From a virus: 64,000 bases of DNA. Positions 10,255 through 40,066 of the stretch are shown one piece after another. The stretch lies in IMG/VR virus record IMGVR_UViG_3300044796_000657, positions 186,001 to 250,000 of that record; one strand, written 5' to 3'. A program made the translations under genes and the position numbers. How positions within the stretch are numbered: the stretch's first letter is position 1; every line of letters starts with the position of its first letter. The notes under the pieces are model-generated. The model ran no database searches and had not been told where the DNA came from. It worked only from the letters and a program-made list of their open reading frames with translations.

Positions 10255-10308
10255 ATTGACACAGTTAAAAGTTAATGGAAGTAATTGTAGTTATATAGCA
10301 ACTACCCA

Positions 10309-11385
10309 TTAGTAATCGTTATCTTCGTACGCTGACCAATAATCACTCTTAACTGGCGTAGTTCGCTTTTTGAGTGATCGCTTCTTTTTCAGCGACTCTT
10401 TGAGCTTCTCTACGTCTTCTTTGAGCTTGGACTTCGTTTCTTCCACCCTGTCTTCGGGGCAAGGCGGGATAAGAAACGAAAGCATCTTTTCCGTTTCAGT
10501 TCTCAATACCTTGTTCGTACCATACTTAATGATACGCTCTAGGAACCAAGTTTTGGTTTCGTAAAGACCTTTACTGAGTATGAAGAACGGTTCTTCATTA
10601 TGAAGTCCTAAGCCAGTTAACATCTCTTTGAGATTTTGGTAAGGAGTTATGTTGCCGGGGAAAGGCATGGTGCGACAAGTATTCGCAAAGTGAATAAACA
10701 TGCGTGCCCAATTCTTAATTTCCTTGGAATCCAAAGTGCCTTCTGGCAATCGCAATTCAACCGTTTTCTTAGAGGCACCACTGTGTACATAGTTGCCCAT
10801 GTTCAGTGATACCCGACGTTCGCTGTTTTCAAGCGATAGCGGTCTGACTTTACTCCAGAATGTATCAACGTTTTTTGCCTGCACAGCCGATACAGGCTTG
10901 AGATCATTCAACAGGCGACAGTAAACGTTATTACGGCGACCCTTGGGCAAAATCTCAATCAGCAGCCTCTCCATCTTCATCCAGTTGGCCATCAAAGTTG
11001 CGGCCTGCGAAGTATTGAAGTCGGCGATTTCAACGTGGATGTGATAGCCACAGTTATCATTAACTTGTGCGCCATTCTTTTTGAGAGTATCGCCCATGTT
11101 AGCCAACTTAATCAAATCGGCGGCACCGGACGCTTTATAGGAAGCGACTTCCCAACCGCCTTCTTGTGGCTTCGTACCACAACTGCGGTCAAACTTTACG
11201 TGCCAATAATCATTGCCAGAATCTTGCTGGTAATGATTCGTACCCATGACATGATGCTTGGAGTCCGTCAATCGGACGACCTGTACAAGTTCGTCAAGGG
11301 TTTTGCTTTTGATCACCTCAAGCTCAATACCAAAGCATCGCTTCGTGTTGAACTTGACATACTGGACAGGAAGCATTTCAGGCAT
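10309..11385 (-). CDS. Amidoligase-family (COOH-NH2 ligase) enzyme
   Basis: 358 aa. The conserved elements of the putative amidoligase family (Amidoligase_2) are present in order: GIELEV near the N-terminus, WHVKFDRSC, a WEVAS segment, NCGYHIHVE with the paired His, and VELRLPEGT. Members are ATP-dependent, glutamine-synthetase-like enzymes that join carboxyl and amino groups and are thought to modify peptides or cell-wall components. The Lys-rich C-terminal tail (about residues 300-350) looks like an added coil. In a phage it might modify peptidoglycan, a protein or a small molecule. The substrate cannot be read from sequence. Confidence 0.8.
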   Translation of the reverse strand: MPEMLPVQYVKFNTKRCFGIELEVIKSKTLDELVQVVRLTDSKHHVMGTNHYQQDSGNDYWHVKFDRSCGTKPQEGGWEVASYKASGAADLIKLANMGDTLKKNGAQVNDNCGYHIHVEIADFNTSQAATLMANWMKMERLLIEILPKGRRNNVYCRLLNDLKPVSAVQAKNVDTFWSKVRPLSLENSERRVSLNMGNYVHSGASKKTVELRLPEGTLDSKEIKNWARMFIHFANTCRTMPFPGNITPYQNLKEMLTGLGLHNEEPFFILSKGLYETKTWFLERIIKYGTNKVLRTETEKMLSFLIPPCPEDRVEETKSKLKEDVEKLKESLKKKRSLKKRTTPVKSDYWSAYEDNDY

Positions 11386-11399
11386 ATCGCACCATTAGG

Positions 11400-11669
11400 T
11401 TAACCGTTACTCCACCAAGATTTATCAGTTCCTCCACCCTTAGTACCTCTCGCAAAATTGACGAAATATTGCATCAACTTGCGTATGTCATTTTGGGCTT
11501 CGGCTGATTTCTCCTCTAGGTCGGACATTTGCTCGCTCAGCACCTGCATTGAAGCACTCAACAGAGTTTGAGCCTTCACCACCGCTGAGAATTTGACCAA
11601 AAGAGCTACTTGGACAAGTAGAATAAGCGAACCGAAACCGATTATCAATCCAACAAGCAATTCATTCAT
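11400..11669 (-). CDS. Single-pass membrane protein with coiled coil, 89 aa
   Basis: Starts at the ATG at 11669, just after the upstream stop. A strongly hydrophobic segment spans about residues 4-27 (LLVGLIIGFGSLILLVQVA), followed by a long amphipathic, Gln/Glu-rich helix (SEQMSDLEEKSAEAQNDI) and a Gly-rich C-terminus. The architecture suits an anchored phage protein such as an antiholin or spanin-like factor, but no family is recognised. Confidence 0.55.
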   Translation of the reverse strand: MNELLVGLIIGFGSLILLVQVALLVKFSAVVKAQTLLSASMQVLSEQMSDLEEKSAEAQNDIRKLMQYFVNFARGTKGGGTDKSWWSNG

Positions 11670-11670
11670 T

Positions 11671-12804
11671 TTATGTGTCTCCCATCGTGGCAACGTAAGC
11701 CGCCGTATTATCTTCCATCAATTGCTTCAAGTTGCCGGTACTTTGCGATGTGATTACGAAAGCCAAACGTAAGTTTCTAAAAAACTTAGCCTCATCCTCA
11801 ATCGTAGTAGCAGTCGCCAAAGTTGTAGCCCCATGAGTAGAAACGAAAGTTAATTTACCAAAGCTGTCATTACGACAAACTACATCCGATGAAAAAGATG
11901 CTGACAAACGAGACATGAATCGCTGATTGGTACGCTTAACGAACACAAAAACCGAAAAATCCCAATTTGCATTATTATCGCACGCAAACTTAAAATTCAA
12001 ATCCCAACTCTCTCTACCACTTACTATAGGGGAATTCCCCGAAAGATGCAAATTACCAATCCAACCATTATCCCTATCAGAAAATGTTAATTTGACATAA
12101 TCGCCATCAGCAACGCCAATTAATGATAGTTTATTCAAATTCAGAAAGCGATTCAAGTCTGGTATGACATTAAGATTGTGCTTACATTCTAATATCAATG
12201 AAATTGGGGAACTACAACACGGCACCACCTTTCCGCCAACTAAATATGCCAATGGTGTTTGTGGCGTTATAGATGTCACCATCTCAGAGATCGTTTCACC
12301 TTCAAGATAATCATCTACTAAAACATCATCAAATACGTCGCCTTCATTATCGGACACAATCAGTGATTGCCCATCTGTTTCTATAGTACCAGAAATAGCA
12401 AAAACAAAATCGGATCTATTTTGAATGCGACCTACAAAATGTTTGCCACGATTTGGAACCGATGTATCGCCGTAAGACAACAAAATAGGATCTTGTTGAA
12501 CAGGCACTTTAACGGCAGCAATCGTTTTTGTCTTTTTAGATTTGCAGCCTTTTGGCAACTTGACTTCAATAACTGCCGATGGATCAATATTACTACCACC
12601 ACTAACAGGTTTCAGAAATTTCAAAACCTTCTTGATTGAAAAATTGTACTTCTTTGCTGTCAAGATTGAGCAAAGCTCATCAAGATCGCACGCCTGCAAA
12701 GTAACCGATACGTATCCATTATCACCGATACCTTGCACTTCATAATAATGAGGTTGGCATTCTTTGATGTCGTAACGGAACGATCTACCAGAGATAAATT
12801 TCAA
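11671..12804 (-). CDS. Unknown protein, 377 aa, TTG start
   Basis: The frame opens with TTG at 12804, six bases after a clear TAGGAG Shine-Dalgarno, and no nearby ATG competes. The N-terminal part has strand-rich segments (SFRYDIKEC, VSVTLQACD). The middle is rich in Asp/Glu (VSDNEGDVFDDVLVDDYLEGE). The C-terminal half looks like a beta-sandwich (LTFSDRDNGWIGNLHLSG). Possibly a virion protein. No family recognised. Confidence 0.5.
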   Translation of the reverse strand: MKFISGRSFRYDIKECQPHYYEVQGIGDNGYVSVTLQACDLDELCSILTAKKYNFSIKKVLKFLKPVSGGSNIDPSAVIEVKLPKGCKSKKTKTIAAVKVPVQQDPILLSYGDTSVPNRGKHFVGRIQNRSDFVFAISGTIETDGQSLIVSDNEGDVFDDVLVDDYLEGETISEMVTSITPQTPLAYLVGGKVVPCCSSPISLILECKHNLNVIPDLNRFLNLNKLSLIGVADGDYVKLTFSDRDNGWIGNLHLSGNSPIVSGRESWDLNFKFACDNNANWDFSVFVFVKRTNQRFMSRLSASFSSDVVCRNDSFGKLTFVSTHGATTLATATTIEDEAKFFRNLRLAFVITSQSTGNLKQLMEDNTAAYVATMGDT

Positions 12805-12819
12805 GTTTTACTCCTAGAC

Positions 12820-13272
12820 TCAAGAATTCCTAATGACTTTTTTGATAAAATTCGTCCATTCAGGATGACTGTGAATTACCATAGGAAACTTAATGAAATG
12901 ATTGGCATAAGCATGGCACCAAAGTTCCTCTGGCGGCTCATCTTTCTTCTTATCTTTTGTCTTACTGCAGAGAGCTTCCCACTCTTTTTGAGCTGGCTTA
13001 CCTTTAATAATAAACTCCCAAACCAAGTGCCCAATTTCATGAAATAAGGCAAATTCACGCCCATAATTCCACGGACTGCTAACCCGGATGGATTTCTTTT
13101 TTGGGTGAATGATGATTTCGCCAACATGGGCGCCATCACCTTTAAGTGTGTGCGTAGGTTCGAGATTTAACTCAAATCCATGAGCTAGTTTTTGGTGTGC
13201 AAGCGGCAGCTTTTCAAGTGCCTGTTCGACATCTTTTTTTTCGTTCTCGATGAATTGTTTGAATCGTTCCAC
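12820..13272 (-). CDS. HExxH metallopeptidase, ImmA/IrrE-like
   Basis: 150 aa with a GTG start at 13272. FALFHEIGHLVWE holds the zinc-binding HExxH, and EELWCHAYANHF, about 40 residues later, resembles the E...AN.FA signature of ImmA/IrrE peptidases. These proteases cleave repressors or regulators in other systems. The gene stands alone at the divergence point with phoH, next to a TATATAA box, so it is probably separately regulated. Family assignment is by motif only; other gluzincin families remain possible. Confidence 0.65.
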   Translation of the reverse strand: MERFKQFIENEKKDVEQALEKLPLAHQKLAHGFELNLEPTHTLKGDGAHVGEIIIHPKKKSIRVSSPWNYGREFALFHEIGHLVWEFIIKGKPAQKEWEALCSKTKDKKKDEPPEELWCHAYANHFIKFPMVIHSHPEWTNFIKKVIRNS

Positions 13273-13365
13273 TCCTTATATATTTGCGGCGATTATTTTC
13301 ACCGCATTCAATTCTACATACTTTTGCTTCTTTCGCCTTTTACACACACGTTAAGGGGACCACCC

Positions 13366-14034
13366 ATGCCACGAAAATTCGATAAAGCTGGCAAGACCGT
13401 CAATTCCAATAAACCTAAACTCTTACAATTGGATTTACCCGATGAACAAAAAAGAGCACTTGAGCTCTATCAGGAAAATGACATCATTTTCCTCGTCGGA
13501 CCGGCCGGTACTGGTAAAACATTCTTGTCAATGGCTTTTGCCGTTCAAGACATTCTTTCACAAGTACGTGAAAAAATCATCATTAGTCGTCCAGTCGTAG
13601 AGGCCGGTGAAAACTTGGGTTTCTTGCCCGGCGACTTGGATGAAAAAATTTACCCTTACATGCTTCCGCTCTATGACTGTTTAGAGAAATTGTGCGGCAA
13701 AGATACCCCTAACCGGAGATTTGTTGAAGATCGTTATGAATTAGCACCGCTCGCCTTCATGCGAGGTCGTACGTTTGATGAATCTATCTGTATTCTTGAC
13801 GAAGCACAAAACTGCTCCAAATCTCAATTGAAATTATTTTTGACTCGTTTGGGCAAATTCAGCAAAATGATTGTCACTGGTGACCCTACACAAAATGACC
13901 TTGGCTATGGCAAGTCTGGGCTTCAGGAAGTCCTAGATAAACTCGAAGGCGTTCCCGGTATTGGTATTCACTACTTTACCGAAGAGGCCATTGTCAGACA
14001 CCCATTGGTTGCACAAATCGTGAAGCGCATTTGA
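13366..14034 (+). CDS. phoH: PhoH-like ATPase
   Basis: 222 aa from the ATG at 13366, preceded by AAGGGGACC. Walker A is GPAGTGKT, Walker B is ICILDEAQN, and TGDPTQ plus a conserved RGRTF segment complete the PhoH signature. PhoH proteins are predicted ATPases, often linked to RNA metabolism or nuclease partners, and are very common in large phages. It is divergent from the metallopeptidase gene and begins the 13-16 kb plus-strand group. Confidence 0.9.
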   Translation: MPRKFDKAGKTVNSNKPKLLQLDLPDEQKRALELYQENDIIFLVGPAGTGKTFLSMAFAVQDILSQVREKIIISRPVVEAGENLGFLPGDLDEKIYPYMLPLYDCLEKLCGKDTPNRRFVEDRYELAPLAFMRGRTFDESICILDEAQNCSKSQLKLFLTRLGKFSKMIVTGDPTQNDLGYGKSGLQEVLDKLEGVPGIGIHYFTEEAIVRHPLVAQIVKRI

Positions 14035-14055
14035 CAAACCTAATCCGAAAAACAA

Positions 14056-14083
14056 ATCCCGGTATGAATATCTATACCGGGAT
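14056..14083 (+). other. Perfect hairpin between phoH and the next gene
   Basis: A 10-bp perfect inverted repeat ATCCCGGTAT / ATACCGGGAT with an eight-base loop lies just upstream of the GGAGG of the gene at 14103. No T-run follows, so it is more likely an mRNA-stabilising, processing or translation-control element, or a palindromic protein-binding site, than a terminator. Confidence 0.6.
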
Positions 14084-14102
14084 AGTTAACGGAGGAAATC
14101 AA

Positions 14103-14447
14103 ATGCCCAAGAATGCCAAGTGTCATCATGGACAACACCATGAAAAATGTTCATCGAACGTCAAATGCTTAATCCAAGTTTTGGAAGCATTAGTTGGCGA
14201 TAGCGATTGCCAATCCAACCATCACGAAGTTGAAGGTTGTATTACCTTAAATCAAGGTCATCACGAAATCACCGTCACAACTGACGAGTGCCCAGAACGT
14301 GTATTCTTGTCGGTTTTACCGATCAGTACACCAGTTTGTGTTGGCGACATTGATATGGTAGGCTATTCGCTCACACCAGAAGGTTTTATTTTGTATGCCG
14401 ACATTAAGTCAGCAGTGGCCGAAGTTTGCTACATCGTTCAAGGTTGA
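14103..14447 (+). CDS. Unknown His/Cys-rich small protein
   Basis: 114 aa. The start is fixed by GGAGGAAATCAA immediately upstream. The N-terminus is rich in His and Cys (KCHHGQHHEKC), suggesting metal binding. The rest is strand-rich (ITVTTDECPERVFLSVLP). A strong Shine-Dalgarno and isolation between two hairpins suggest high or separate expression, possibly as a structural protein. No family recognised. Confidence 0.55.
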   Translation: MPKNAKCHHGQHHEKCSSNVKCLIQVLEALVGDSDCQSNHHEVEGCITLNQGHHEITVTTDECPERVFLSVLPISTPVCVGDIDMVGYSLTPEGFILYADIKSAVAEVCYIVQG

Positions 14448-14484
14448 ATTCAGTAAAATCATACGGTATATTGTAAATTGCTTT

Positions 14485-14512
14485 GGGGTCTAGGAAGAAA
14501 TTTCTTGACCCC
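14485..14512 (+). other. Inverted repeat with internal palindrome
   Basis: GGGGTC / GACCCC arms enclose the perfect palindrome AAGAAATTTCTT. It lies between the genes ending at 14447 and starting at 14532. There is no clear T-run, so I treat it as a possible weak terminator or regulatory stem. Confidence 0.4.
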
Positions 14513-25295: not shown

Positions 25296-26144
25296 TTATG
25301 CCCATTTTTTTGCCATTAACTTCTGATCAAGCTGGACAAGATAATCATGTCCATATTTGCCGTTTTCCAAATTTTCAACAAGGTGCGAAGGCAAATCTTT
25401 GATATAGTCATTAGCGTGCGCCGCACAACCCAAAGCGATTGTCGCCACAGTATCTACGTCGCCGCCGAAATCCACACAAACTCTTAACAGTTCGGATAAG
25501 CGATTACATTTTACGACTGCGGTAATGGCTGCTCGCACGCTCATCCAGCCTTTTGGGCCAACCTCGCCAATGTACGGAACGTTCCAATCACCCGGAACAT
25601 ACGTGGATAAAAACTCCCCAATGTGCTTTTTACTGCCGAGTTGGTGGTAGAAATAATGACTCATCAGCGCTGCTGCTTGCGCTGCCCAAATACCGTCATC
25701 TGTATCGTGAGTAATGCGTGCTTGAATAGCACAGTGGTGTACAACCTTGGAACGTTGTGGGTACATACCCAACGGAACCGCTCGCATCGCAGCACCACTC
25801 TTATCGCTCTTATTGTTACCCTTCAAACGATCAAGAAGCTCTTGACCGTTTTCAACTTCCGTTAAAAGTCCATAGAAACCACTTGCGTATCCTTCCCGTG
25901 GATCACGCTTGAAAACTGCGACAAACTTATCCGCCAAATCCAATGGCGTAAATCGGTCGTATTCCAGCATTGCTTCAGCGATTGCGATACTCATTTGAGC
26001 ATCGTCTGTATAGCAACCGGGTTTGATTTTATGCTTGGGATGCGCAGTGTACTGCTTGAGGTTATTGAATTCATCAATGTGCTTTGGCTTGACGTATTCA
26101 AATCCTGCACCATAGGCATCGCCAACACTTAATTCTACCAACAT
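25296..26144 (-). CDS. ADP-ribosylglycohydrolase (DraG/ARH family)
   Basis: 282 aa. GDAYGAGFE near the N-terminus, CYTDDAQMS, and DFGGDVDTVATIALG near the C-terminus are the conserved metal- and ADP-ribose-binding segments of the family. These enzymes remove ADP-ribose from proteins or nucleic acids. Start supported by AGAGGATGATCTC. A phage enzyme could reverse host defensive ADP-ribosylation or undo modification of polymerase. No ADP-ribosyltransferase is visible in the window. Confidence 0.88.
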   Translation of the reverse strand: MLVELSVGDAYGAGFEYVKPKHIDEFNNLKQYTAHPKHKIKPGCYTDDAQMSIAIAEAMLEYDRFTPLDLADKFVAVFKRDPREGYASGFYGLLTEVENGQELLDRLKGNNKSDKSGAAMRAVPLGMYPQRSKVVHHCAIQARITHDTDDGIWAAQAAALMSHYFYHQLGSKKHIGEFLSTYVPGDWNVPYIGEVGPKGWMSVRAAITAVVKCNRLSELLRVCVDFGGDVDTVATIALGCAAHANDYIKDLPSHLVENLENGKYGHDYLVQLDQKLMAKKWA

Positions 26145-26354: not shown

Positions 26355-26597
26355 TTAATAATCCTCATCATCGTCGTCGTCGTCGTCATCGTCAAATACG
26401 TTATCATCATCGTCAAACACTTTGTCGTCGTCGTCGTCGTCTTCATCATCATCGAATTCATCATCATCATCGTCATCAAACTCATCGTCATCGTCGTCGT
26501 CATCATCAAATTCATCATCGTCGTCTTCAAATTCATCATCGTCATTCCAATCATCATCGTCTTCAAAGTCGTTGTCATTGGATTTATTAATTGGCAT
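26355..26597 (-). CDS. Poly-aspartate acidic protein, 80 aa
   Basis: About 60 residues are Asp-rich with interspersed Glu, Phe, Trp and Asn in a loose repeat (DDDDEFDDDDD, DDWNDDDEFED), from a GAT/GAC-rich low-complexity tract. The start has a strong Shine-Dalgarno (AAAGGAG, eight bases before the ATG), which argues it is translated. Such extreme acidity suggests DNA mimicry, metal or cation binding, or interaction with basic proteins. No family recognised. Confidence 0.6.
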   Translation of the reverse strand: MPINKSNDNDFEDDDDWNDDDEFEDDDDEFDDDDDDDDEFDDDDDDEFDDDEDDDDDDKVFDDDDNVFDDDDDDDDDEDY

Positions 26598-27143: not shown

Positions 27144-28010
27144 TCAAGGTTTTCTGTAGGCAGACACGATTTGATTGGGTCGCCACGGTTTACGAAGAAA
27201 AACACTACCTAAAACAAATGCATCCGCACCGTTTTTTTCACGAATACGAACGTCTTCAATCGTCATGATGCCCCCACCACTCATGATGGGAGCCTTGACA
27301 CCAGCGGCCTTAACTTTTTGAAGTGCTTCAATAGCAAAGTTTCGGATAGGCTCGCCGGAAACACCACCAACCAACTTAAACTTGTTCAACGGACTCTTTT
27401 TGCCGGGGAACACTAAGGGGAAAGGTACTGTGTTAATGAGTTCGAAGGCCGAAACCGTCCCGTCCAACTCTTTACATATACTAACATAATCATCCGCAAA
27501 AGACAACTTCACTATTACTGGATGTGAAGTATTTTTTTCAACGGCGGCAATAGTTTCGCAAATAAACTCCACTGCGTTAGAACGTGTGACATTCGGGCAA
27601 CTCACATTGACTTGAATGCCCTTAATGCCAACACATTTATCAAGCTGTTGAGCCATCGTTACTGCTTCTTCTACCGACTTTGGCATGATGGAAACCAGAA
27701 CGTTATATCCCTTATCCATCACCAATTTGTACTTAGCATCAATCCACCATTTAAGGCCGGGATTTGTCAAACCAATGGCATTGACCGCCCCGCCGGGAAT
27801 GAGTTGTACGCATCGCCACGGACACCACATATTCAGATTACCAACAGTTGGTTCCAATGTCAAGGTCTTTGTGATGATAGTTAATTTAGTAGGGTCAATA
27901 ATACCCAACCACCTTAACGGATGTTCCCACCACCAACCTTGTCCATCGAATGCCAAAGCACCAGATGCGCAAGCGAAATCAATCTTGTGTCCGTTTGATA
28001 ATTCAATCAT
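27144..28010 (-). CDS. Dihydroorotate dehydrogenase-like FMN enzyme
   Basis: 288 aa from an ATG at 28010 that overlaps the upstream stop as TAATG. VNVSCPNV contains the class 1 active-site Cys segment, VIVKLS the FMN/substrate Lys segment, and KLVGGVSGEPI plus MSGGGIMTIEDV the FMN-phosphate loops of the family. The reaction would be dihydroorotate to orotate in pyrimidine synthesis. Unusual insertions rich in Trp (GQGWWWEHPLRW) lie near the N-terminus, so substrate identity is not certain and dihydropyrimidine-type relatives are possible. Confidence 0.7.
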   Translation of the reverse strand: MIELSNGHKIDFACASGALAFDGQGWWWEHPLRWLGIIDPTKLTIITKTLTLEPTVGNLNMWCPWRCVQLIPGGAVNAIGLTNPGLKWWIDAKYKLVMDKGYNVLVSIMPKSVEEAVTMAQQLDKCVGIKGIQVNVSCPNVTRSNAVEFICETIAAVEKNTSHPVIVKLSFADDYVSICKELDGTVSAFELINTVPFPLVFPGKKSPLNKFKLVGGVSGEPIRNFAIEALQKVKAAGVKAPIMSGGGIMTIEDVRIREKNGADAFVLGSVFLRKPWRPNQIVSAYRKP

Positions 28011-28657
28011 TAGTAATCCCAACTTGACGATAAGTAAGAACTCGATACACGTGAACTTGAACATTTCAAAGTGCTAAATGTGTACGATTCCCGCTTCTTG
28101 ATAATATCTTGATAGCACTTTGAGGTAAAATGCTTTTGCAAAAGATTAACAAATAAAAGCACACTTGGTTCAGTCGTTGTGCATTCAACCAATTCGGGTG
28201 CACTTTGACTTCGCTTCTTACACTCACCACGAATTACGTACATTCTTGCCTTTAAAGCCATTCTTTGATAACGAGGATCACCACCGGGGACATTGTCAAC
28301 AGCCGCATGAGCACCCTTGTATGTAGAAAAAGAAAAGCCCGGAAAGACCCATGCGTGACCTTCGCTGCTTTTGAAGACAGCGTAGCCCAAAAGCTTCTTT
28401 TTGAGATAGTTAATAGTTAACTCAAAATCTTCTTGACTATCACAATCAATCATCGGAATTGTTCGTCCGCCGATTTGACACTGAATTATCAAAAAATGGT
28501 TTTCAGGTTTTCTACCAGAAACAGTGCGATAAAAACTACGAAGAGCATCGTCGCCAACGCCTATAAGGGACAATGAGCGTCCATTTGTATATTCGTTGGC
28601 GAAACGATACTCATCGTGGAAAATCAATTCCTTGTTTTCATTTAACCAATACTTCAT
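28010..28657 (-). CDS. Unknown protein, possibly archaeo-eukaryotic primase-like
   Basis: 215 aa. IPMIDCDSQEDFEL resembles the hDhD motif I of archaeo-eukaryotic primases, and VFKSSEGHAWVF the s-x-H motif II, with plausible spacing of about 35 residues. A third acidic motif is not clear. The C-terminal end is Ser-rich. The start follows GAGGCGAC. It is coupled to the dihydroorotate dehydrogenase-like gene. Treat the primase idea as a hypothesis. Confidence 0.4.
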   Translation of the reverse strand: MKYWLNENKELIFHDEYRFANEYTNGRSLSLIGVGDDALRSFYRTVSGRKPENHFLIIQCQIGGRTIPMIDCDSQEDFELTINYLKKKLLGYAVFKSSEGHAWVFPGFSFSTYKGAHAAVDNVPGGDPRYQRMALKARMYVIRGECKKRSQSAPELVECTTTEPSVLLFVNLLQKHFTSKCYQDIIKKRESYTFSTLKCSSSRVSSSYLSSSWDY

Positions 28658-29409: not shown

Positions 29410-30150
29410 ATGAAACGCAATACATATTTTATGCCATGCAACAAAAATCACACAAATTGTAAATTTGATTCGTACGGAATGGGCATCATGCCTGAGTGCT
29501 GTAAGAGCCACTTAATTGAAACAATATTCTACACGACTTGGCTACTCAATCTTTACGAAATTAAACATTGGGCTGATTATGGAACGCTTTTAGGTGCTGT
29601 TAGGGGTGGGGGATTTATCCCTTGGGATTCTGATGGGGATTTCGGCGTTATGGCAAGCAGCAAAAATCAAATACTGAGCTTGGAGCAAAAAATCAAACGG
29701 GATGGATTTCATTTACATGTCTCTAGCAAAAACGTTATTCAAATAGTTTATAGCAAAAACAATTGGTCATATGTTGAATTGTGGTTAAATAGATTAGACA
29801 GCGCAAGAACTTATAAGGTCAAAAAAGTCAGCAATGAAATGCCGCCCCATTATTCACCTATTGATCTATCTCCTATTCGTAATCAATCATTGATATGCAA
29901 ATCAGGCGGGCCGGGGACTCAATGGGATCATACTTCGGATTTTCCATATTGGTTCGTAGAAGAAACAGATAAAGTTAAGTTTGAAGGAAAATATCTGCCT
30001 TCGCCAAAAATGCCAGAACACTTTTTGGATATGCGGTTTGGGCACTGGCAAGACCCTGTACGAAAATCGGTAGCGTATTTCGGGGGCAATGCCCTATCCA
30101 TGAGAGAAAGCCTCAAAAAAGTCAATCAATTGAAATCAATGCGAGGATAA
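29410..30150 (+). CDS. LicD-family phosphotransferase
   Basis: 246 aa. HWADYGTLLGAVRGGGFIPW followed by DSDGDFG is the LicD nucleotidyltransferase-fold active-site signature with the catalytic Asp residues. LicD enzymes transfer phosphocholine or related phospho-alcohols from CDP-activated donors to surface glycans. It converges with a cytidylyltransferase gene (25-base overlap) and a PhnW-like gene, so it could attach phosphonate or phosphocholine groups. First residues before GIMPECC are uncertain. Confidence 0.85.
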   Translation: MKRNTYFMPCNKNHTNCKFDSYGMGIMPECCKSHLIETIFYTTWLLNLYEIKHWADYGTLLGAVRGGGFIPWDSDGDFGVMASSKNQILSLEQKIKRDGFHLHVSSKNVIQIVYSKNNWSYVELWLNRLDSARTYKVKKVSNEMPPHYSPIDLSPIRNQSLICKSGGPGTQWDHTSDFPYWFVEETDKVKFEGKYLPSPKMPEHFLDMRFGHWQDPVRKSVAYFGGNALSMRESLKKVNQLKSMRG

Positions 30151-30800
30151 ACGTAATTGATGGCATATTCCAATTGTTCTTGATCGTCAATTTCTGTAAA
30201 AACGCCCGGAGCATTGAGAATGAAAAACTTATCACCCAAAGTTTCATAAGCATAATCATAATGCTCTTTTGGATTCTTTTTCAAAATGCAATACGACTTA
30301 ACAATAAGACGAGCAAATGTATCGGCGCTCAATTTAGAAATGCCTACAGCAATATTCTGATTAGGCGGCAATTTCTTTGACATATGAATCAAATTGCCGT
30401 CAGAATCCACTTCGGCAAATACGGCATCTTTAGGATCGCCCTTACCAAACAAAACAACATTAGGAGCAGGGCATTCAATAATAGCATCAAGCATGATCGG
30501 ATCGTAGAGAATGTCCGATTCCAGAATCAAAACATCACTCCTAATATCACCCATTTGTCTCAAAGTATGAAGACTGCCAGTTGTTTCATAAACATCATTT
30601 TGTCTGGTTTCAAATCCGAGAGCTTGATAATAACGAGCACCATATCCCGTTCCAATAATGGGACAAATCCCCCTTTTCAATAATGCTTTAATAGAATAAG
30701 AAATCAATGAATTGCCATAAAGGTTAATAAAACCTTTAGGCCGATTCAGATTCAAACGACTACCTGTTCCAGCAGCCAAAATAAGTGCATGTTTAACCAT
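30126..30800 (-). CDS. Sugar/alcohol-phosphate cytidylyltransferase (LicC/PntC-like)
   Basis: 224 aa. The N-terminal LILAAGTGSRL...PKGF is the nucleotide-binding signature of the NTP-transferase family, and ILESDILYD holds the metal-binding Asp. The size and form fit phosphocholine or 2-aminoethylphosphonate cytidylyltransferases. Being coupled to a PhnW-like aminotransferase favours CMP-aminoethylphosphonate as product, but CDP-choline is possible. Start overlaps the stop of the next gene upstream. Confidence 0.75.
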   Translation of the reverse strand: MVKHALILAAGTGSRLNLNRPKGFINLYGNSLISYSIKALLKRGICPIIGTGYGARYYQALGFETRQNDVYETTGSLHTLRQMGDIRSDVLILESDILYDPIMLDAIIECPAPNVVLFGKGDPKDAVFAEVDSDGNLIHMSKKLPPNQNIAVGISKLSADTFARLIVKSYCILKKNPKEHYDYAYETLGDKFFILNAPGVFTEIDDQEQLEYAINYVYPRIDFN

Positions 30801-31698
30801 TGGCGATTTTTCTCAATATCGTATTCAATTCATGATACACATGATTACTAGAATAATTGAAACAACTGATTTGAATACAATCTTTCATGTATGTTTCATT
30901 TTGATAAACAAAGAATCCTTCATTGGCCAAAGCATCCTTAACATTCAACCTCAACGTCACCACTGGTGATATGCTTTCATTGACAATATACTTCTCTAAG
31001 CCTTTAGTTAAAGTTTCAGCATTCAATGAAACCATTGCTCTGAATTTATCTAAATCAAAAATTTTCAATGATTGCAAAAGAGAGAAAAACTGAGGCATCA
31101 AAGATGTGTGCGGTGTTTCACCTTTTTTGGCATACTCAATATACTTAGACAGATTGAGATAATCGGAGCGACAAAACAAAGCAGGAAGATCATTATAAAG
31201 CACAATGCCCATCGCAGGCAAGCCGGATAATTGTTTAGAAGAACTGACAATTAGAAAATCTGCTTGTGGAATCGGATAATACGGAAAAGCAGAAACCGCA
31301 TCAACAATTAACTTACCATCAAATTTGAAATTAGTCAAATCATTATAATAACTGTTACTTGTCTCAAACTGAACAACGAAACAAACATCACGCTTTTCCA
31401 CCTTGGCTAAATCGTCATAAATCTTAACATTCTTGCTGTAATAAGAAGCTGTAATTGCTGCTCGACGACCAAATTCGCCATTAACGACAACGGCAACCGT
31501 TGTATCTTCGGCAAGTGTTGAAGATAAGACGGTTTCTACGGCGGAAGATGCACTTCCTTGCGTAAAAATCACATTTTTATAACCCGATAAATTCAAGAGA
31601 AGCAATGCCGTTTGCTTATAAACATCACGAAATTCATCACTTCTGTGGCTGAATTCTATCGTCTCACTTGGTACCGGGCCGGGGGATAGGAGTTTCAT
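30793..31698 (-). CDS. PhnW-like class V aminotransferase
   Basis: 301 aa. LLSPGPVPSET and SHRSDEF match the start of 2-aminoethylphosphonate:pyruvate aminotransferase and related class V enzymes, and SSSKQLSGLPAMG contains the likely PLP Lys. PhnW interconverts phosphonoacetaldehyde and aminoethylphosphonate. In the synthetic direction it would supply a phosphonate for the cytidylyltransferase and LicD encoded next door. Shorter than typical PhnW (about 360 aa), so the activity is inferred. Confidence 0.7.
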   Translation of the reverse strand: MKLLSPGPVPSETIEFSHRSDEFRDVYKQTALLLLNLSGYKNVIFTQGSASSAVETVLSSTLAEDTTVAVVVNGEFGRRAAITASYYSKNVKIYDDLAKVEKRDVCFVVQFETSNSYYNDLTNFKFDGKLIVDAVSAFPYYPIPQADFLIVSSSKQLSGLPAMGIVLYNDLPALFCRSDYLNLSKYIEYAKKGETPHTSLMPQFFSLLQSLKIFDLDKFRAMVSLNAETLTKGLEKYIVNESISPVVTLRLNVKDALANEGFFVYQNETYMKDCIQISCFNYSSNHVYHELNTILRKIANG

Positions 31699-32378
31699 TT
31701 GGATAGACGTACATTGAACCTATAAGGGTAACATGGCAACGGATGAGGCATAATATCTAATCTCAACCCCGATTTCTTGGCATAATCCTCAAAAAACTCA
31801 TGACTCAAATAAAGATGATCGAGTCCTGCATACAGTACGTCATAATCCTTGCCGACATTTTCACGCCTCGTTTTTTCCGCTAATGGCTTCTTCAATTCAT
31901 CGTTAATGTCAACAATTCCAACAATCTTATTAGCTTTGGCAACCATGACATCAAGCACTTGCGTTGCGTATTCCTTACTAGGAAAATACACACAGCAACC
32001 TACTGCCAGTACAACATCATATTTGGGTTCAGTAGGAATTGCTATCGCTTCGACTGCTGAAAGGTCGTCAGACTTAATGATTTGTTTGGCGTGTTCAATC
32101 AGTGCTTCGCAATAATCGGCACCACCAACGCTCTTGGCTATATCTTGGATGTTGTACAAGAAAGAACCAGCACCACAACCAATTTCAAAAACAGACTTCG
32201 TATCGTCTATTTCATAGGTCATAATGATGGATTTGATAAAATTTAACCAAGCTGCTAAGTCGGTTTTAGCAACTTTCGATTCGTATCCGCTGGCAGTGAA
32301 TAAGGCTTGTAATAAACTAGCTGGTGGCAAAGATAGACTCTTGCCCCGCCTGTCCCATACTTCTTTCCACTTGTTCAT
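31695..32378 (-). CDS. SAM-dependent methyltransferase
   Basis: 227 aa from the ATG at 32378, inside the end of the 138-aa gene. SVFEIGCGAGSFL is the SAM-binding motif I and VVLAVGCCVYFP a plausible motif II. The N-terminus (WKEVWDRRG) resembles small-molecule or sugar methyltransferases. It overlaps the PhnW-like gene by four bases, so it may N- or O-methylate the same decoration. Substrate unknown. Confidence 0.75.
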   Translation of the reverse strand: MNKWKEVWDRRGKSLSLPPASLLQALFTASGYESKVAKTDLAAWLNFIKSIIMTYEIDDTKSVFEIGCGAGSFLYNIQDIAKSVGGADYCEALIEHAKQIIKSDDLSAVEAIAIPTEPKYDVVLAVGCCVYFPSKEYATQVLDVMVAKANKIVGIVDINDELKKPLAEKTRRENVGKDYDVLYAGLDHLYLSHEFFEDYAKKSGLRLDIMPHPLPCYPYRFNVRLSK

Positions 32379-32733
32379 ATACTTCTTTCGCAAAGTTGTC
32401 TTGGCATTTTTTGTTATAAGCTAGAATCGTTTCAAGGGAATTTCCTAATATTTCGCCAAAATCATCTTTAGTGACTTCGACTCCTCTAATACGTGCTCTT
32501 TGTTCTTCAGCAGAACGAAAGCCACTTTCCTTTAACATATCGACAGCTTCGTCAAATATATCTTCAGGAAAAATTTCCATGCCATGTTCTTGGAATTTTT
32601 TCAAACACCTCTTAGCTGCTGGCTCCATGAAAGCCTGTAATAAGGTTTGAATAGATGTGCTGATTACTGGCCCTTCTAGTAAAACGTCCTTTTCGTCTTC
32701 CGGGCCGTAAAATGATAATCTGTATATAGACAT
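32317..32733 (-). CDS. Unknown helical protein, 138 aa
   Basis: The Shine-Dalgarno GGGGAGG lies inside a terminator-like hairpin. The product is helical and acidic (FPEDIFDEAVDMLKESGF, VEVTKDDFGEILGNSLETI). Its 3' end overlaps the methyltransferase start by about 60 bases in another frame. No family recognised. Confidence 0.5.
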   Translation of the reverse strand: MSIYRLSFYGPEDEKDVLLEGPVISTSIQTLLQAFMEPAAKRCLKKFQEHGMEIFPEDIFDEAVDMLKESGFRSAEEQRARIRGVEVTKDDFGEILGNSLETILAYNKKCQDNFAKEVYEQVERSMGQAGQESIFATS

Positions 32734-32784: not shown

Positions 32785-33663
32785 TTAGAATAGCGATCTT
32801 TCAGCAAGAAACCCTGCCGATTGAGCATGTCCACCACCACCATGATGTAAAGCTATTTTAGAAACATCAACACCCTTTTTATTGGAACGCAATGAGTAGG
32901 AATACTTGCCATCCTCTCGCTGAAACCAAACAACACCAAAGGGTCTATTATCCGCCAACATACACCCAACATCCGAATTCATAACACTACTATTAACTGC
33001 TAAAACTCGGTAGCCATCCAATTCAACTTCTCTTGCATATCGCACCATGTCGGATGCCATCTGCTCTTGAAATCTCAAAATTGAACAACCTTCTTTTTTA
33101 ACATCACTCAACTTGCGATGAGATAATTCGTCCCAAGTTTCAAAATCAAATGGATAAGAAGAAATGACAGCGTTAACACATCTCGTATCTGCCAATTCGT
33201 GTTTGCCCAAGTCTCTATCTTGGACATATTGTACCAGCCAAGGCATTGAGCCATCAAAAGATCGGTCACTTTGACGACAATTATTGAAGTAGCACCAAGT
33301 CATCCCACTACCGCTTTTGTTCATATTGAAATAACAATATGGCAAACCGGCAAGATCGGCTTCGGCAGTGATATGGTGATCCAAAACAGTTAATGTTTTA
33401 GATTGTTCGTACATAGATTGTAAAATCTTGCGTTTGTACGAAAAGTCCAAAATGTAAGTTTCACGGCCTTTTGTATCTGGCGGTGATTCCCCAAATTGAG
33501 CAAAGATGATGTTAGCATCTGGAAAAACCTTTTGGGCTACCCATGCCGCACAAAATCCATCTGTGCATCTACCGTGTGTTATCACGGTTACATTACTAGG
33601 AGGGTCTTCGGGTTCCGTAATAATGTCTTTGGGATTAGAAATCACAACTTCTAAAACGCTCAT
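32785..33663 (-). CDS. DHH/DHHA1 family phosphoesterase
   Basis: 292 aa. THGRCTDGFCAAW and the LDHHITA motif form the DHH active site with metal-binding Asp and His, and GGGGHAQSAGF is the DHHA1 substrate-binding motif. Members such as NrnA degrade nano-RNA, pAp or cyclic-dinucleotide-derived linear dinucleotides. In a phage it could recycle oligonucleotides or remove signalling nucleotides used in defence. Start follows AAAGGTTT and overlaps the downstream hexapeptide gene. Confidence 0.85.
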   Translation of the reverse strand: MSVLEVVISNPKDIITEPEDPPSNVTVITHGRCTDGFCAAWVAQKVFPDANIIFAQFGESPPDTKGRETYILDFSYKRKILQSMYEQSKTLTVLDHHITAEADLAGLPYCYFNMNKSGSGMTWCYFNNCRQSDRSFDGSMPWLVQYVQDRDLGKHELADTRCVNAVISSYPFDFETWDELSHRKLSDVKKEGCSILRFQEQMASDMVRYAREVELDGYRVLAVNSSVMNSDVGCMLADNRPFGVVWFQREDGKYSYSLRSNKKGVDVSKIALHHGGGGHAQSAGFLAERSLF

Positions 33664-34325
33664 AAACCTTTAGCGAACTGGTAAACAGCCCGCCCCTTAT
33701 GACGTTTAGCATCCCACTGATTTTCCAACGTAGCATAAAAGCCCGTTTCGGTAATCGGTGAATTCCCTTCAAGCGGTAAGCCCCACTTGCGGATAGCATA
33801 AACGTTAACACTCAAGTCTTTTTTGGGAATGTATTTTGCCAAAGGTGGCACATCTTTTACAACCATCGCATTGCCAGCAATCATTGCATATTGACCAATG
33901 GTCGTAAATTGATGCGTCACAGCCGCTACACCAACGGTAGCGCCTTCCATAACTCTTGTCCAACCGGACAATATCGTACCAATTGAGAGAACAGCTTTTT
34001 GCTCTACGATACAATCGTGAGCAATATGGCATCTTCCCATAATATACACATCATCCATCACCTCTGTCAATCCCGCTGTCGGGAGGGTGATAACACTTAA
34101 TTCTCTAATAATCACACGTTCGCCAATACGTACAATTCCCGTACATTCGTTTTGTTGTTCGTATTTCTCTGTACTATGCTCTGGCGGCTGTCCTATAATG
34201 ACATGCGTACCAACAATCGTATCATCACCAATCTCGCATTGAGAAATGGTTGAATAAGCACCAATTCTCACGTTTTTACCCAAACGCACAGTTTCCCAAT
34301 CAATGATAGCAGTTGGATGTATCAC
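33660..34325 (-). CDS. Left-handed beta-helix (hexapeptide) acyltransferase-like protein, GTG start
   Basis: 221 aa. Repeating hexapeptides such as IGAYSTISQCEIGDD and VIIGQPPEHS, and NVRIGAY, give an LpxA-like left-handed beta-helix. GTG at 34325 follows GAAGGCAAGCT. Members transfer acetyl or acyl groups to sugars. Next to a GT2 and a methyltransferase gene, so a sugar-modifying role is likely. The catalytic His cannot be fixed by eye. Confidence 0.8.
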   Translation of the reverse strand: MIHPTAIIDWETVRLGKNVRIGAYSTISQCEIGDDTIVGTHVIIGQPPEHSTEKYEQQNECTGIVRIGERVIIRELSVITLPTAGLTEVMDDVYIMGRCHIAHDCIVEQKAVLSIGTILSGWTRVMEGATVGVAAVTHQFTTIGQYAMIAGNAMVVKDVPPLAKYIPKKDLSVNVYAIRKWGLPLEGNSPITETGFYATLENQWDAKRHKGRAVYQFAKGL

Positions 34326-34900
34326 AGCTTGCCTTCTGCTAAATCTTGGTACAATTTATTAGTTTTAGCCCAAGCGGTCGCATCACGATAGTGAATATTG
34401 AAGTGCTGAATTTGAAGATCGCAATGCTGACTCTTTTTGAAGTTAACGCATTGTTCGTGAACCCGACCTGAATACCTAACGTGTTTTCTCATCAACCGGT
34501 ACTGCGAGTCCCCGTTCGGACAAGGAACCCATTCACGGGTCATCTCTAAATCAAACCAGTGAAGTCTGGACATTGTCCAAGTGTCAACGCCTTGAGCATT
34601 ACCTTGGTGACATAAATCTCGCAATCGTGCAGCGTGTGCGGGCAACATAATTTCATCTGAGTCAATGGTCAAAAGCCACTGACTTTTGACACGATCTATT
34701 AACCCATTTCTCATACTGCCGAAATCGGTAAATTTGAATGTGAATGGATTATAACCAGCTTCACGTAGCCATTTTTCGGTGCCGTCATTGGTTTTATCAT
34801 CAATACCAATGACGTAATCATCAACATGACCCTTTATGCTCGCAAGACATTTTTTGAGTGGCTCTAATTCGTTACAAGTTAAAATACAAGCTGTTAGCAT
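34322..34900 (-). CDS. Family 2 glycosyltransferase
   Basis: 192 aa. LTACILTCNE, VIGIDDKTNDGT and LTIDSDEIMLP match GT2 nucleotide-sugar and DxD segments; it is close to the minimal GT2 size. Later His/Tyr residues (FNIHYRDA) may contact the acceptor. Overlaps the hexapeptide protein gene. Part of the 29-36 kb surface-sugar block. Confidence 0.85.
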   Translation of the reverse strand: MLTACILTCNELEPLKKCLASIKGHVDDYVIGIDDKTNDGTEKWLREAGYNPFTFKFTDFGSMRNGLIDRVKSQWLLTIDSDEIMLPAHAARLRDLCHQGNAQGVDTWTMSRLHWFDLEMTREWVPCPNGDSQYRLMRKHVRYSGRVHEQCVNFKKSQHCDLQIQHFNIHYRDATAWAKTNKLYQDLAEGKL

Positions 34901-34908
34901 AAAATAAC

Positions 34909-35655
34909 TTAGTTAGTTCTCCTGTCATTCATAACAAAAAGCTTCCGATCACGCAAAGCTGTCGTATAAATATTTTCATCAGGAAGTTGTTCAATATCCA
35001 TTTCACAAGTCCAAGCAAATTCTTGAAGTGCCATGAAGTTTGGAATGAAAAAAGAACCCGCACCAACATGTTTAACGTATTGTTGGCCTCTGTATACAGT
35101 AGTGTGCCGTTCTGGTCTATCGCTGGCTACTTCTAAAATAGGCTTCTCAATGTTTATTCTAGTTAAGGGTGTTTCGATGAGAATTTGGCCACCCGGTGAC
35201 AGCAATTGGGTCATCTTTCTAAAATGACCCAATACATCTTCGGCGTGATATAAAACACCAAAATACAAAATTACATCATACTTTTTATCTTCGCCAAGAT
35301 TCAAAAAGTTATCAACTACAATGTCCAATTCAACGTTCCATTCAGCATTTGCCAAAAGGAGTCTATTCGGAAAATGGCCAATACACATTTCGAGGGGATT
35401 GATTGATGTGACAGACTTTGCGCCTGCGAGCATTGAACCTATTGAGAAAAACCCATCATTAGCACCAATATCTAAAACTTTTTTGTCTTTGACATTAACG
35501 CCAACTCGCCGAAATGCTTCCCACATTTTTTGTTCACGATTACGGTCATGATTAGCCCCCATAATCCTACTACCGTCTGGTAGTGGCATATTATGGAACC
35601 ACATGCCTTTATCAACAAGTTTTCCGTCCCAAGCATAATCAAAAAATGACTTCAT
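34909..35655 (-). CDS. SAM methyltransferase, CmoB/DUF1698-like
   Basis: 248 aa. WFHNMPLPDG, VLDIGANDGFFS (SAM motif I) and LYFGVLYHAEDVLGHF resemble CmoB-type tRNA U34 carboxymethyltransferases and relatives that act on sugars. The ATG has no Shine-Dalgarno but a TATATA box six bases upstream. Given the neighbouring glycosyltransferases, a sugar methyltransferase is as likely as a tRNA-modifying enzyme. Confidence 0.75.
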   Translation of the reverse strand: MKSFFDYAWDGKLVDKGMWFHNMPLPDGSRIMGANHDRNREQKMWEAFRRVGVNVKDKKVLDIGANDGFFSIGSMLAGAKSVTSINPLEMCIGHFPNRLLLANAEWNVELDIVVDNFLNLGEDKKYDVILYFGVLYHAEDVLGHFRKMTQLLSPGGQILIETPLTRINIEKPILEVASDRPERHTTVYRGQQYVKHVGAGSFFIPNFMALQEFAWTCEMDIEQLPDENIYTTALRDRKLFVMNDRRTN

Positions 35656-37466: not shown

Positions 37467-37991
37467 TCAATCTTTAGAAGTTTTAGGAACTAATCTTACG
37501 GAAAGCCTAGTACCTTCAAACTTTGGAGGTGATACGGTTGTACCAACATCTTGAATGGATGCTAAAATCTTATTCATGATAATGAAGCCACGATCTTTGT
37601 GCTGCATTTCACGACTTCTGAAAACGATGTTAACCGATACAGGATGCTTGTCATTCAAAAACTTCTTCAGTTGATTGATTTTGACTTCAACATCATTATC
37701 ACCGGAAACAGGTCGTAACCGAATTTCCTTCGGTGCGACATTCTTAGAATTGTTTTGTTGCTCTTTCTTCTTCTTCTTTTCTTCGTACTGAAATCGCTTG
37801 TAGTCCATGATTTCGCATACAGGTATGTCGCCAGCGGACACTTCCACTAGATCCATATCGTTAGACCACGCCAAGTCCCAAGCCTTGTACGTTGGCATGA
37901 TCCCTAAGTGTTCACCGTCTCGTTTTACCCGTACAGTGGGTGCGGTGATGTAGCGGTTTACCCGTGTCATCCGTTTGTTGAAAATCGTCAT
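37467..37991 (-). CDS. infC: Translation initiation factor IF-3
   Basis: 174 aa, close to bacterial IF-3 (about 180). N-terminal domain: NRYITAPTVRV, HLGIMPTYKAW, DLVEVS, CEIMDYKRFQYEEKKKKKEQ, including the linker region. C-terminal domain: APKEIRLRPVSGDNDVEVK, VNIVFRSREMQHKDRG, SPPKFEGTRLSV. IF-3 binds the 30S subunit, blocks 50S joining and proofreads start codon and initiator tRNA. Start is ATG at 37991 with GGAG only one base upstream, so regulation of initiation is atypical. Host infC starts with rare ATU in E. coli; here it is ATG. It suggests phage-controlled initiation. Confidence 0.93.
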   Translation of the reverse strand: MTIFNKRMTRVNRYITAPTVRVKRDGEHLGIMPTYKAWDLAWSNDMDLVEVSAGDIPVCEIMDYKRFQYEEKKKKKEQQNNSKNVAPKEIRLRPVSGDNDVEVKINQLKKFLNDKHPVSVNIVFRSREMQHKDRGFIIMNKILASIQDVGTTVSPPKFEGTRLSVRLVPKTSKD

Positions 37992-38431: not shown

Positions 38432-40066
38432 TCAAACCTTCTTTGCTAGTTTGCTGAACATACGGCTCAGAGCGGGCGTAAAATCCCCACGCTCTATAAC
38501 GGTGTTAATGATGAACGGCTCTTTGCATACAAGGGCTTGCGACAAAGCAGCATCCAACTCATCTTCAGTAGTTGCCTTGGCACCCTTACCACCACCGACC
38601 AACAACGGCATATTTTCAAAATTCCAATTTTGGATGTCGTTGAATGAACCCTCCAAGAGAATTCTTTCGGTGCCATATCCACCATTGTTGAGAACGATCA
38701 CAATTGGATTCATCTTACGACGAACCAAAGTGCTGAATTCCTGTCCTGTCATTTGGAAGGCACCATCACCCACCAATACAATTGGCCGCATCTTTGGATT
38801 GGCCAATTGAGCACCTAACGCAGCAGGCACAGCAAATCCCATACTGGTATAGAATGCTGACGCCAAAAACTGATTGTGGCCGTGTACAGTGACATCCAAG
38901 GCACCGAACAAGCTATCACCAACATCAGCGATAACAGTCATATCTTCGGTCAAGATAGCGTTAACTTTCTCCATCAACCGGTCGGCCTTGAGAGTAACGC
39001 CGCACTTGGCTTCCCATTTTTCGGTATACGCCGGGCCGGGCATCTTGACGCTTTCACGCCGTTGGAATTTGTGCTTACACAATCCGTCAACGAAGTCGCC
39101 AAACTGCACGTTGGCATACGTGTGGTTTCTCACCTGCATGGTTTGACTGGTTGCGTTGATCGTATTGCGACGTTTGTGACGCAGTGGCAAGAATCCGAGA
39201 TTCATATCCGTCATCATCACGCCCAACATAATCACGCAATCGCTCTTGGCGAAGAAGTCAACCACTTCTGGACGACTTGTACTTTCGCTGTACACACCCA
39301 ACGACATTGGATGCCGCTCACCAATACACGACTTGCCCAAGATGTCCGTAGCGATTGGAATGCCGGTTTGTTCGGCAAATTTCATTAACTTTTGACCCAA
39401 ACCAAATCGGGCAACTTCAACGCCTGCCCAAATCACCGGGTTTTTGGCATTGGTGATCCAGTTAATCGTATCCGACAAAATTTCCTGTAGGTTCTCTTGA
39501 TCGGAAGATATATTGGAAGGAGTGCCTACTGTGTAAGCATCGTACGTAATTGGCTTTTCAACCATATCACGGGGTAACTCGATGTATACCGGTTGCTTGT
39601 AGTGTTTGGCTGCTTCGAGAACTCTGTCGATTTCAAAAGCCGCTCGACTTGGATCACGAAGTACCGTATTGGCACAAGTGATGTTCTCAAAAATTTCATG
39701 CTGGCATTCAAAACTGCGTACCATATGGTGAAGTAAAACGTCACCATTACGCTCTTTCATACCCGGTGATCCGGAAATCACGACCACAGGACTCTTTTCG
39801 GCGAATGCACCACCAATAGCATTGATAAGGCTAAATCCACCGACGCAATATGTCACACAAACCGCTGACATACCACCATTGTTAACACGGGCATAACCAT
39901 CAGCAGCAAAGCCAGCATTAGCTTCATTGGTAGTACCAACTAACTCTATGTTGCTCTTTTCAACGTACTTATTGAAAGCCAATGAATAGTCGCCGGGAAC
40001 ATTCAGCATGTGATTGACGCCGTTACTCTTTAACCGCTCAATCAAAAATTGGGCCACGTTAGGCAT
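38432..40066 (-). CDS. ThDP-dependent 2-keto acid decarboxylase (PDC/IPDC-like)
   Basis: 544 aa, the full three-domain length. N-terminal PYR domain: NEANAGFAADGYAR with the activating Glu, CVGGFSLINAIGGAFAEKSP, and the LLHHMV paired His of pyruvate/indolepyruvate decarboxylases. Middle domain about 190-330. C-terminal PP domain: VLVGDGAFQMTGQE...NNGGYGTE, the GDG-NN ThDP/Mg motif. It would decarboxylate a 2-keto acid such as pyruvate or indole-3-pyruvate to an aldehyde. Full length and HH dyad argue against phosphonopyruvate decarboxylase, which is shorter. An unexpected activity for a phage. Confidence 0.85.
   Translation of the reverse strand: MPNVAQFLIERLKSNGVNHMLNVPGDYSLAFNKYVEKSNIELVGTTNEANAGFAADGYARVNNGGMSAVCVTYCVGGFSLINAIGGAFAEKSPVVVISGSPGMKERNGDVLLHHMVRSFECQHEIFENITCANTVLRDPSRAAFEIDRVLEAAKHYKQPVYIELPRDMVEKPITYDAYTVGTPSNISSDQENLQEILSDTINWITNAKNPVIWAGVEVARFGLGQKLMKFAEQTGIPIATDILGKSCIGERHPMSLGVYSESTSRPEVVDFFAKSDCVIMLGVMMTDMNLGFLPLRHKRRNTINATSQTMQVRNHTYANVQFGDFVDGLCKHKFQRRESVKMPGPAYTEKWEAKCGVTLKADRLMEKVNAILTEDMTVIADVGDSLFGALDVTVHGHNQFLASAFYTSMGFAVPAALGAQLANPKMRPIVLVGDGAFQMTGQEFSTLVRRKMNPIVIVLNNGGYGTERILLEGSFNDIQNWNFENMPLLVGGGKGAKATTEDELDAALSQALVCKEPFIINTVIERGDFTPALSRMFSKLAKKV

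Follow-up and report, generated by a model that had tools for sequence, protein, structure and literature searches.

A phage-borne cassette related to phosphonyl-tailoring genes in a 430-kb viral genome

Can a phage encode enzymes that decorate a surface glycan with a phosphonate? The question is raised by a 64,000-nucleotide stretch of viral DNA (the window), which covers positions 186001-250000 of the 430,229-base IMG/VR virus record IMGVR_UViG_3300044796_000657. At 29410-32393 of the window, four intact genes lie together: licD on the plus strand, followed on the minus strand by genes for a cytidylyltransferase (CyTase), a class-V aminotransferase and an S-adenosylmethionine (SAM)-dependent methyltransferase. 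The first-pass annotation had read this group as a cassette for activation and transfer of 2-aminoethylphosphonate (AEP), or possibly phosphocholine, and the gene grouping it described is indeed present. We put at roughly 55% the probability that the phage carries here a truncated module for phosphonyl tailoring, similar to the bacterial Pnt pathway. Phosphonyl tailoring of cell surfaces is already known from bacteria. A full-text literature search with partial coverage returned no report of phage phosphonate biosynthesis; phnW, counted as catabolic, has been listed among soil-phage genes (PMC10987575). The cassette genes are as follows.

29410..30150, plus strand: LicD/fukutin-family phosphotransferase, 246 aa (PF04991), predicted to transfer a CMP-activated group to a glycan
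30126..30800, minus strand: PntC-like CyTase, 224 aa, assigned by its match to PntC-AEPT 6PD1, its tree position and its residues
30793..31698, minus strand: class-V pyridoxal phosphate (PLP) aminotransferase, AEP-transaminase-like, 301 aa, below the TIGR03301 cut-off and with Gln276 for a conserved Arg
31695..32393, minus strand: SAM-dependent methyltransferase (Methyltransf_12, Methyltransf_25), candidate head-group N-methyltransferase

The three minus-strand genes form an operon with start/stop overlaps of 8 bp (CyTase/aminotransferase) and 4 bp (aminotransferase/methyltransferase), and the convergent licD and CyTase genes overlap by 25 bp. Because homologues of the methyltransferase start at the ATG at 32378, this start is likelier than the one at 32393. 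The cassette sits in a tailed-phage genome, since phage hallmark genes are found both in the window (DNA polymerase, 50284-52785) and in the rest of the record (T4-type terminase, DnaB, UvsX and SSB). Among annotated phages, the nearest terminase belongs to a 595-kb uncultured phage (42% identity). Codon use in the cassette is phage-like and its GC content slightly low.

The closest solved relative of the CyTase is the PntC-AEPT protein of Treponema denticola (Tde1415, 6PD1/6PD2; PMC6697681), in which a CyTase of the same family is fused to a class-V AEP transaminase (AEPT). The phage protein matches 6PD1 over its full length at E 1e-22 and the Pfam family NTP_transf_3 at E 5e-7. Its nucleotidyltransferase signature, GxG(T/S)Rx4-8PK, reads GTGSRLNLNRPK, with Arg15 and Lys22 aligned to R15 and K25 of the Treponema enzyme (Tde-PntC), and the equivalents of R15, K25, E104 and K153 are all kept. 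To place the CyTase among cellular relatives, an alignment was searched against 84,980 bacterial and archaeal genomes, with resemblance to the phage sequence as the test for confirming a candidate; 399 loci were confirmed. The gene for phosphoenolpyruvate (PEP) mutase, pepM, lies in the fetched stretch of 67 of the best 80 loci, which were kept; some bias towards pepM loci is to be expected in this count, because PntC of Treponema and a Roseomonas CyTase linked to pepM were in the alignment. These loci usually also hold ppd, the gene for phosphonopyruvate decarboxylase, and often a CyTase fused to an AEPT, while several of the 13 loci that lack pepM are short contigs or retain ppd. In a quick-search maximum-likelihood tree the phage CyTase groups with those of two genomes from one Melainabacteria-type order (L030 and L031; SH-aLRT support 99). 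This group falls within a pepM-linked clade of 52 rows (SH-aLRT 99), nearly all of whose loci hold pepM, and far from the HisC-like-fused CyTases and from those linked to PEP-utilising kinase and glutamine amidotransferase (GATase) genes in Vibrio and Pseudohalocynthiibacter.

Relatives of the methyltransferase are also found in pepM operons, and the cassette therefore has a tie to phosphonates that is independent of the CyTase. The enzyme is a member of a small family. Only two of 398 Bacillota genomes match it at E 1e-8 or better, both inside pepM clusters, and in each of the three Bacillota lineages where relatives were found, these lie within pepM operons. The proteins of Saccharibacillus and Viridibacillus share 34-35% identity with that of the phage; the former stands in the order pepM-ppd-methyltransferase-PntC/AEPT, the latter between pepM and ppd. 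The Saccharibacillus operons (L034, L035) thus combine the same methyltransferase family with CyTase and transaminase functions, but have pepM, ppd and an Arg-type transaminase. N-methyl-AEP is known to occur in nature (PMC10590968), and the phage enzyme probably N-methylates the amine head group. In the other matching Bacillota genome (L127, 9522-10927), two methyltransferase genes of this kind stand in tandem between pepM and the AEP transaminase gene, and stepwise N-methylation of AEP is possible there.

The transfer step is represented by LicD, which scores 46.8 bits against PF04991 (gathering cut-off 22.6; E 5e-12) and also matches the human FKRP structure 6KAJ (E 1e-10). Its catalytic Asp motif P-x-D-x-D-x-D (D73, D75, D77) is kept, as are the G-T and R positions and a C-terminal P...L/YG...R motif that recurs in the LicDs of pepM loci. 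The AlphaFold2 model is of low mean confidence (62.9), with FKRP as its top structural match (E 1.6e-11). A licD gene convergent on a PntC gene is also seen in two Bacteroidota pepM loci (L069 and L084).

Do other viral sequences carry this pathway? A PepM scan of IMG/VR identified 27 contigs with PepM relatives, all of which keep the EDKx5NS motif; ppd adjoins in most, usually as two half-length genes, and a LicD-like gene lies in the locus of six. Because a terminase was found in only three of the 27 records, not every contig is proven to be viral. One of them, an 85.9-kb metagenome contig taken as assembled (L176; IMGVR_UViG_3300046004_001116), holds at 9995-14504 a complete operon, pepM-ppd-methyltransferase-CyTase-AEP transaminase, directly upstream of the genes for a T4-type head maturation protease and major head protein. 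Its PepM and Ppd both score above curated cut-offs, its methyltransferase is 32% identical to that of the window and its CyTase 33% identical to Tde-PntC. L176 resembles the phage cassette in the same respects as the Saccharibacillus operons do, and likewise differs in having pepM, ppd and an Arg-type transaminase. The location of a complete operon beside head genes indicates that phages carry the full pathway, and phage phosphonate tailoring thereby gains support from a source independent of the window. Most of the 27 contigs are of a second type, in which PepM is fused to another CyTase domain and Ppd is split (within L151-L175; best L158/L159, L165, L169 and L172). A phosphonoacetaldehyde-reductase-like alcohol dehydrogenase in the L159 locus indicates hydroxyethylphosphonate rather than AEP, and a phage hydroxyethylphosphonate route is possible.

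Scans of IMG/VR with single sequences and with profiles returned no relatives of the aminotransferase or CyTase; these scans were not exhaustive and missed the L176 CyTase, which was recovered through the PepM scan. Relatives of LicD, the CyTase and the methyltransferase were likewise absent from 50,697 phage records, except for two short and weak LicD matches. Apparent aminotransferase matches in the annotated phage set were rejected as bacterial DNA or short unannotated contigs; those to PepM were two short fecal contigs, probably bacterial, and others that match only the nucleotidyltransferase part. Within the collections searched, the cassette in its partial, pepM-less form has no close viral relative.

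What would the four enzymes do together? The PLP enzyme would convert an aldehyde to an amine, either AEP or a closely similar compound; because neither PEP mutase nor phosphonopyruvate decarboxylase is encoded by the phage, the host would have to supply the aldehyde or the amine. The methyltransferase would N-methylate this amine, the PntC-like CyTase would join the amine compound to CMP, and LicD would take the phosphonyl (or phosphoryl) group off this ester and attach it to a sugar of a surface glycan. It is very probable that CMP activation followed by LicD transfer of an amino phosphonate or phosphate is the chemical logic of the cassette. That the transferred group is a phosphonate is somewhat favoured, and AEP as its identity is likely but unproven. 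Both the adjacency of aminotransferase and CyTase genes, which parallels the PntC-AEPT fusion, and the nearby LicD or glycosyltransferase genes recall the Pnt pathway, as does activation by CMP. The phage differs from that pathway in its additional methyltransferase and in its separate genes of reversed order, as well as in the absences and substitutions considered next.

Several results weigh against a phosphonate, and in particular against AEP. The record was searched for PepM with two models, a protein query and the EDKx5NS motif, and for Ppd with one model, and neither pepM nor ppd was found in 430,000 of its 430,229 bases; the first-pass statement that both are missing from the window therefore extends to nearly the entire record. 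The only matches were to an HldE-like nucleotidylyltransferase domain and to a thiamine pyrophosphate (TPP) enzyme at window 38432-40066 on the minus strand. We rejected the latter as Ppd, since it is indolepyruvate/phenylpyruvate-decarboxylase-like (TIGR03394, 4.5e-116, below cut-off); a phage-encoded TPP enzyme of this kind is an observation in its own right. The first-pass annotation had held that a lack of phosphonate genes elsewhere in the genome would count against its proposal. By that rule the genome fails, and the proposal survives through the comparative evidence and a presumed supply from the host.

The aminotransferase also departs from known AEP transaminases. Its best curated family is PhnW-AepZ (TIGR03301, E 7e-20), with 71.6 bits against a cut-off of 360.8, and PLP-binding Lys155 and Asp133 are kept. 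Its Gln276, however, occupies a column in which all 69 scorable AEP transaminases of the compared loci have Arg, and within this set the Gln is common only to the phage, L030 and L031. We take the conserved substrate Arg to be R340 of Salmonella PhnW. In a quick tree the phage group has long branches and does not fall within the AEPT clade linked to pepM. Foldseek matches of the AlphaFold2 model (pLDDT 86.6) are class-V aminotransferases including PntC-AEPT, with no separation of AEPT from other class-V enzymes. A parallel change is found in the CyTase. In Tde-PntC, Glu104 and Glu196 contact the AEP amine, and LicC has Asp at the 196 position (PMC6697681); the phage CyTase has Asp there, as do L030 and L031, whereas 78 others have Glu.

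L030 and L031 are the nearest cellular counterparts of the phage aminotransferase-CyTase pair (52% identity for the aminotransferase, about 50% for the CyTase). After the pair they carry a CDP-glycerol glycerophosphotransferase-like gene (PF04464) in place of licD. Like the phage, these genomes have no detectable pepM: their sole PepM-model match is of the methylisocitrate-lyase type, and the PepM protein query gives nothing in them comparable to the roughly 600 to 1000 bits that it reaches in three genomes of their order. A close aminotransferase match occurs in only two of 53 genomes of this order. An aminotransferase-CyTase unit of Sulfitobacter also has the Gln, and pepM was not present in the 38 kb read. 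That locus (L150, 17600-20415, a plasmid of Sulfitobacter sp. SK012) encodes an aminotransferase, a CDP-alcohol phosphotransferase and a CyTase, possibly an undescribed lipid head-group pathway.

We had considered that Gln might exclude AEP, a reading that was softened by two pepM-ppd clusters from the order of L030 and L031 (L128 and L130). The sole aminotransferase in each is a divergent member of class V that is fused to a different type of CyTase. It contains a Q-[IV]-x-C stretch whose Gln aligns with that of the phage in one alignment, while the column is a gap in the other. Gln may therefore still fit AEP, although the stretch possibly occupies a different column. The coupled Gln and Asp changes, together with the absence of pepM in the relatives, suggest either that the head group is not plain AEP but something larger or otherwise different, or that the route does without PEP mutase. 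Of the original AEP proposal, activation and transfer are thus backed by the pepM/ppd-linked CyTase and methyltransferase families, the PntC-type Glu, the LicD Asp motif and L176, while AEP as the substrate is called into question by the missing pepM and ppd, the Gln, the position outside the AEPT clade and the pepM-less L030 and L031.

The main rival keeps the same logic with a phosphate analogue made without pepM. Here the Gln-type PLP enzyme would start from a common host metabolite and make an aminoalkyl phosphate such as phosphoethanolamine or serinol phosphate; the CyTase would convert this product to a CDP-amino-alcohol and LicD would transfer it, so that no PEP mutase is needed. This would account for why the phage, L030 and L031 all lack pepM and ppd and have the Gln and Asp in common, and it fits the pepM-less Sulfitobacter unit. 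We regard it as less likely than the phosphonate reading: the methyltransferase and the CyTase both come from pepM-linked families, a Q-[IV]-x-C class-V enzyme is the sole aminotransferase of the two same-order pepM-ppd clusters (Gln in one of two alignments), and the absence of pepM from two metagenome-assembled genomes is weak evidence. Decoration with host phosphocholine in the manner of LicC is far less probable. It is suggested by LicD beside a CyTase, as in the lic operon, by the LicC-like Asp at position 196 and by annotation tools, which label such genes phosphocholine cytidylyltransferase. LicC (1JYK), however, matches far less well than PntC does (E 0.01 against 1e-22), so that Spn-LicC is not the closest of the solved CyTases, Glu104 is of the PntC type, and the Lic pathway has no place for an aminotransferase or a methyltransferase; the phosphocholine alternative in the first-pass annotation is accordingly not favoured.

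A Campylobacter-type phosphoramidate, or a modification like that of type A flagellin (an N-methyl-amino-acid phosphate), is similarly improbable. Related CyTases do adjoin PEP-utilising kinase and GATase genes in Vibrio and Pseudohalocynthiibacter, and the C. difficile type A cluster likewise pairs a methyltransferase with a phosphodiester-linked group. Those kinase- and GATase-linked CyTases are on a distant branch, however, and the phage cassette, whose neighbours are the aminotransferase, methyltransferase and LicD, adjoins no glutamine-kinase-like or GATase gene. Acquired genes that are degraded or non-functional could explain an aminotransferase that is short (301 aa, also shorter than that of the Pnt pathway) and without the usual Arg. 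We give this little credence, since the four overlapping frames are intact with phage-typical codon use, the PLP Lys and Asp and the catalytic residues of CyTase and LicD are kept, and the Gln is common to two cellular orthologues at 52% identity. A truncated phosphonyl-tailoring module remains our preferred reading.

Upstream of the operon, and in the same orientation, lie three genes that overlap or nearly touch, each identified by a Pfam/NCBIfam match.

33660-34325, minus strand: LpxA-like hexapeptide transferase
34322-34900, minus strand: GT2 glycosyltransferase
34909-35655, minus strand: second methyltransferase, upstream glycan group

These are possible acceptor-glycan genes, whose products would make or alter the glycan that LicD modifies. 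Further surface-glycan genes are found at window 3033-4121 (plus strand) and at record 272946-274999, 318303-319472, 98120-99112 and 133301-134347; they comprise a UDP-galactopyranose mutase (above cut-off), a PseC-like aminotransferase, a Gfo/Idh oxidoreductase, a sulfatase and two GT9 heptosyltransferase-like genes. Other genes in the window, all on the minus strand, encode an ADP-ribosylglycohydrolase (25296-26144, 1.6e-32), a dihydroorotate-dehydrogenase-like protein (27144-28064, 1.4e-23) and, at 26355-26597, an 80-aa frame that is extremely rich in Asp and lies in low-complexity sequence. The record also encodes a serpin (155868-157025, minus strand, locus L010; PF00079, E 6e-96). By eye, translation genes are present as well: IF-3-like (window 37467-37991, minus strand), tyrosyl-tRNA-synthetase-like and large isoleucine/valine-type synthetase-like (record 253603-254760 and 413230-416067).

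AEP has been reported on a bacterial surface glycoprotein (PMC8861647), and there are proposals that phosphonates on the cell surface influence the attachment of phages and that phosphonyl tailoring protects bacteria from them (PMC8931226). For the phage, the likely benefit of the cassette would be either superinfection exclusion, through an altered receptor of the infected cell, or decoration of its virion. We see an even chance that phages encode phosphonate biosynthesis and tailoring more generally, some with the whole route beside capsid genes and others, such as the 430-kb phage, with only the activation and transfer half, which would use host phosphonoacetaldehyde, to yield C-P-bonded surface groups. 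The coupled Gln and Asp changes lead to a specific prediction that can be tested, namely that the head group has changed. If the reading is true, phages with phosphonyl chemistry would represent the other side of the contest between bacteria and phages over surface phosphonates, and would be a new phage contribution to environmental C-P compounds.

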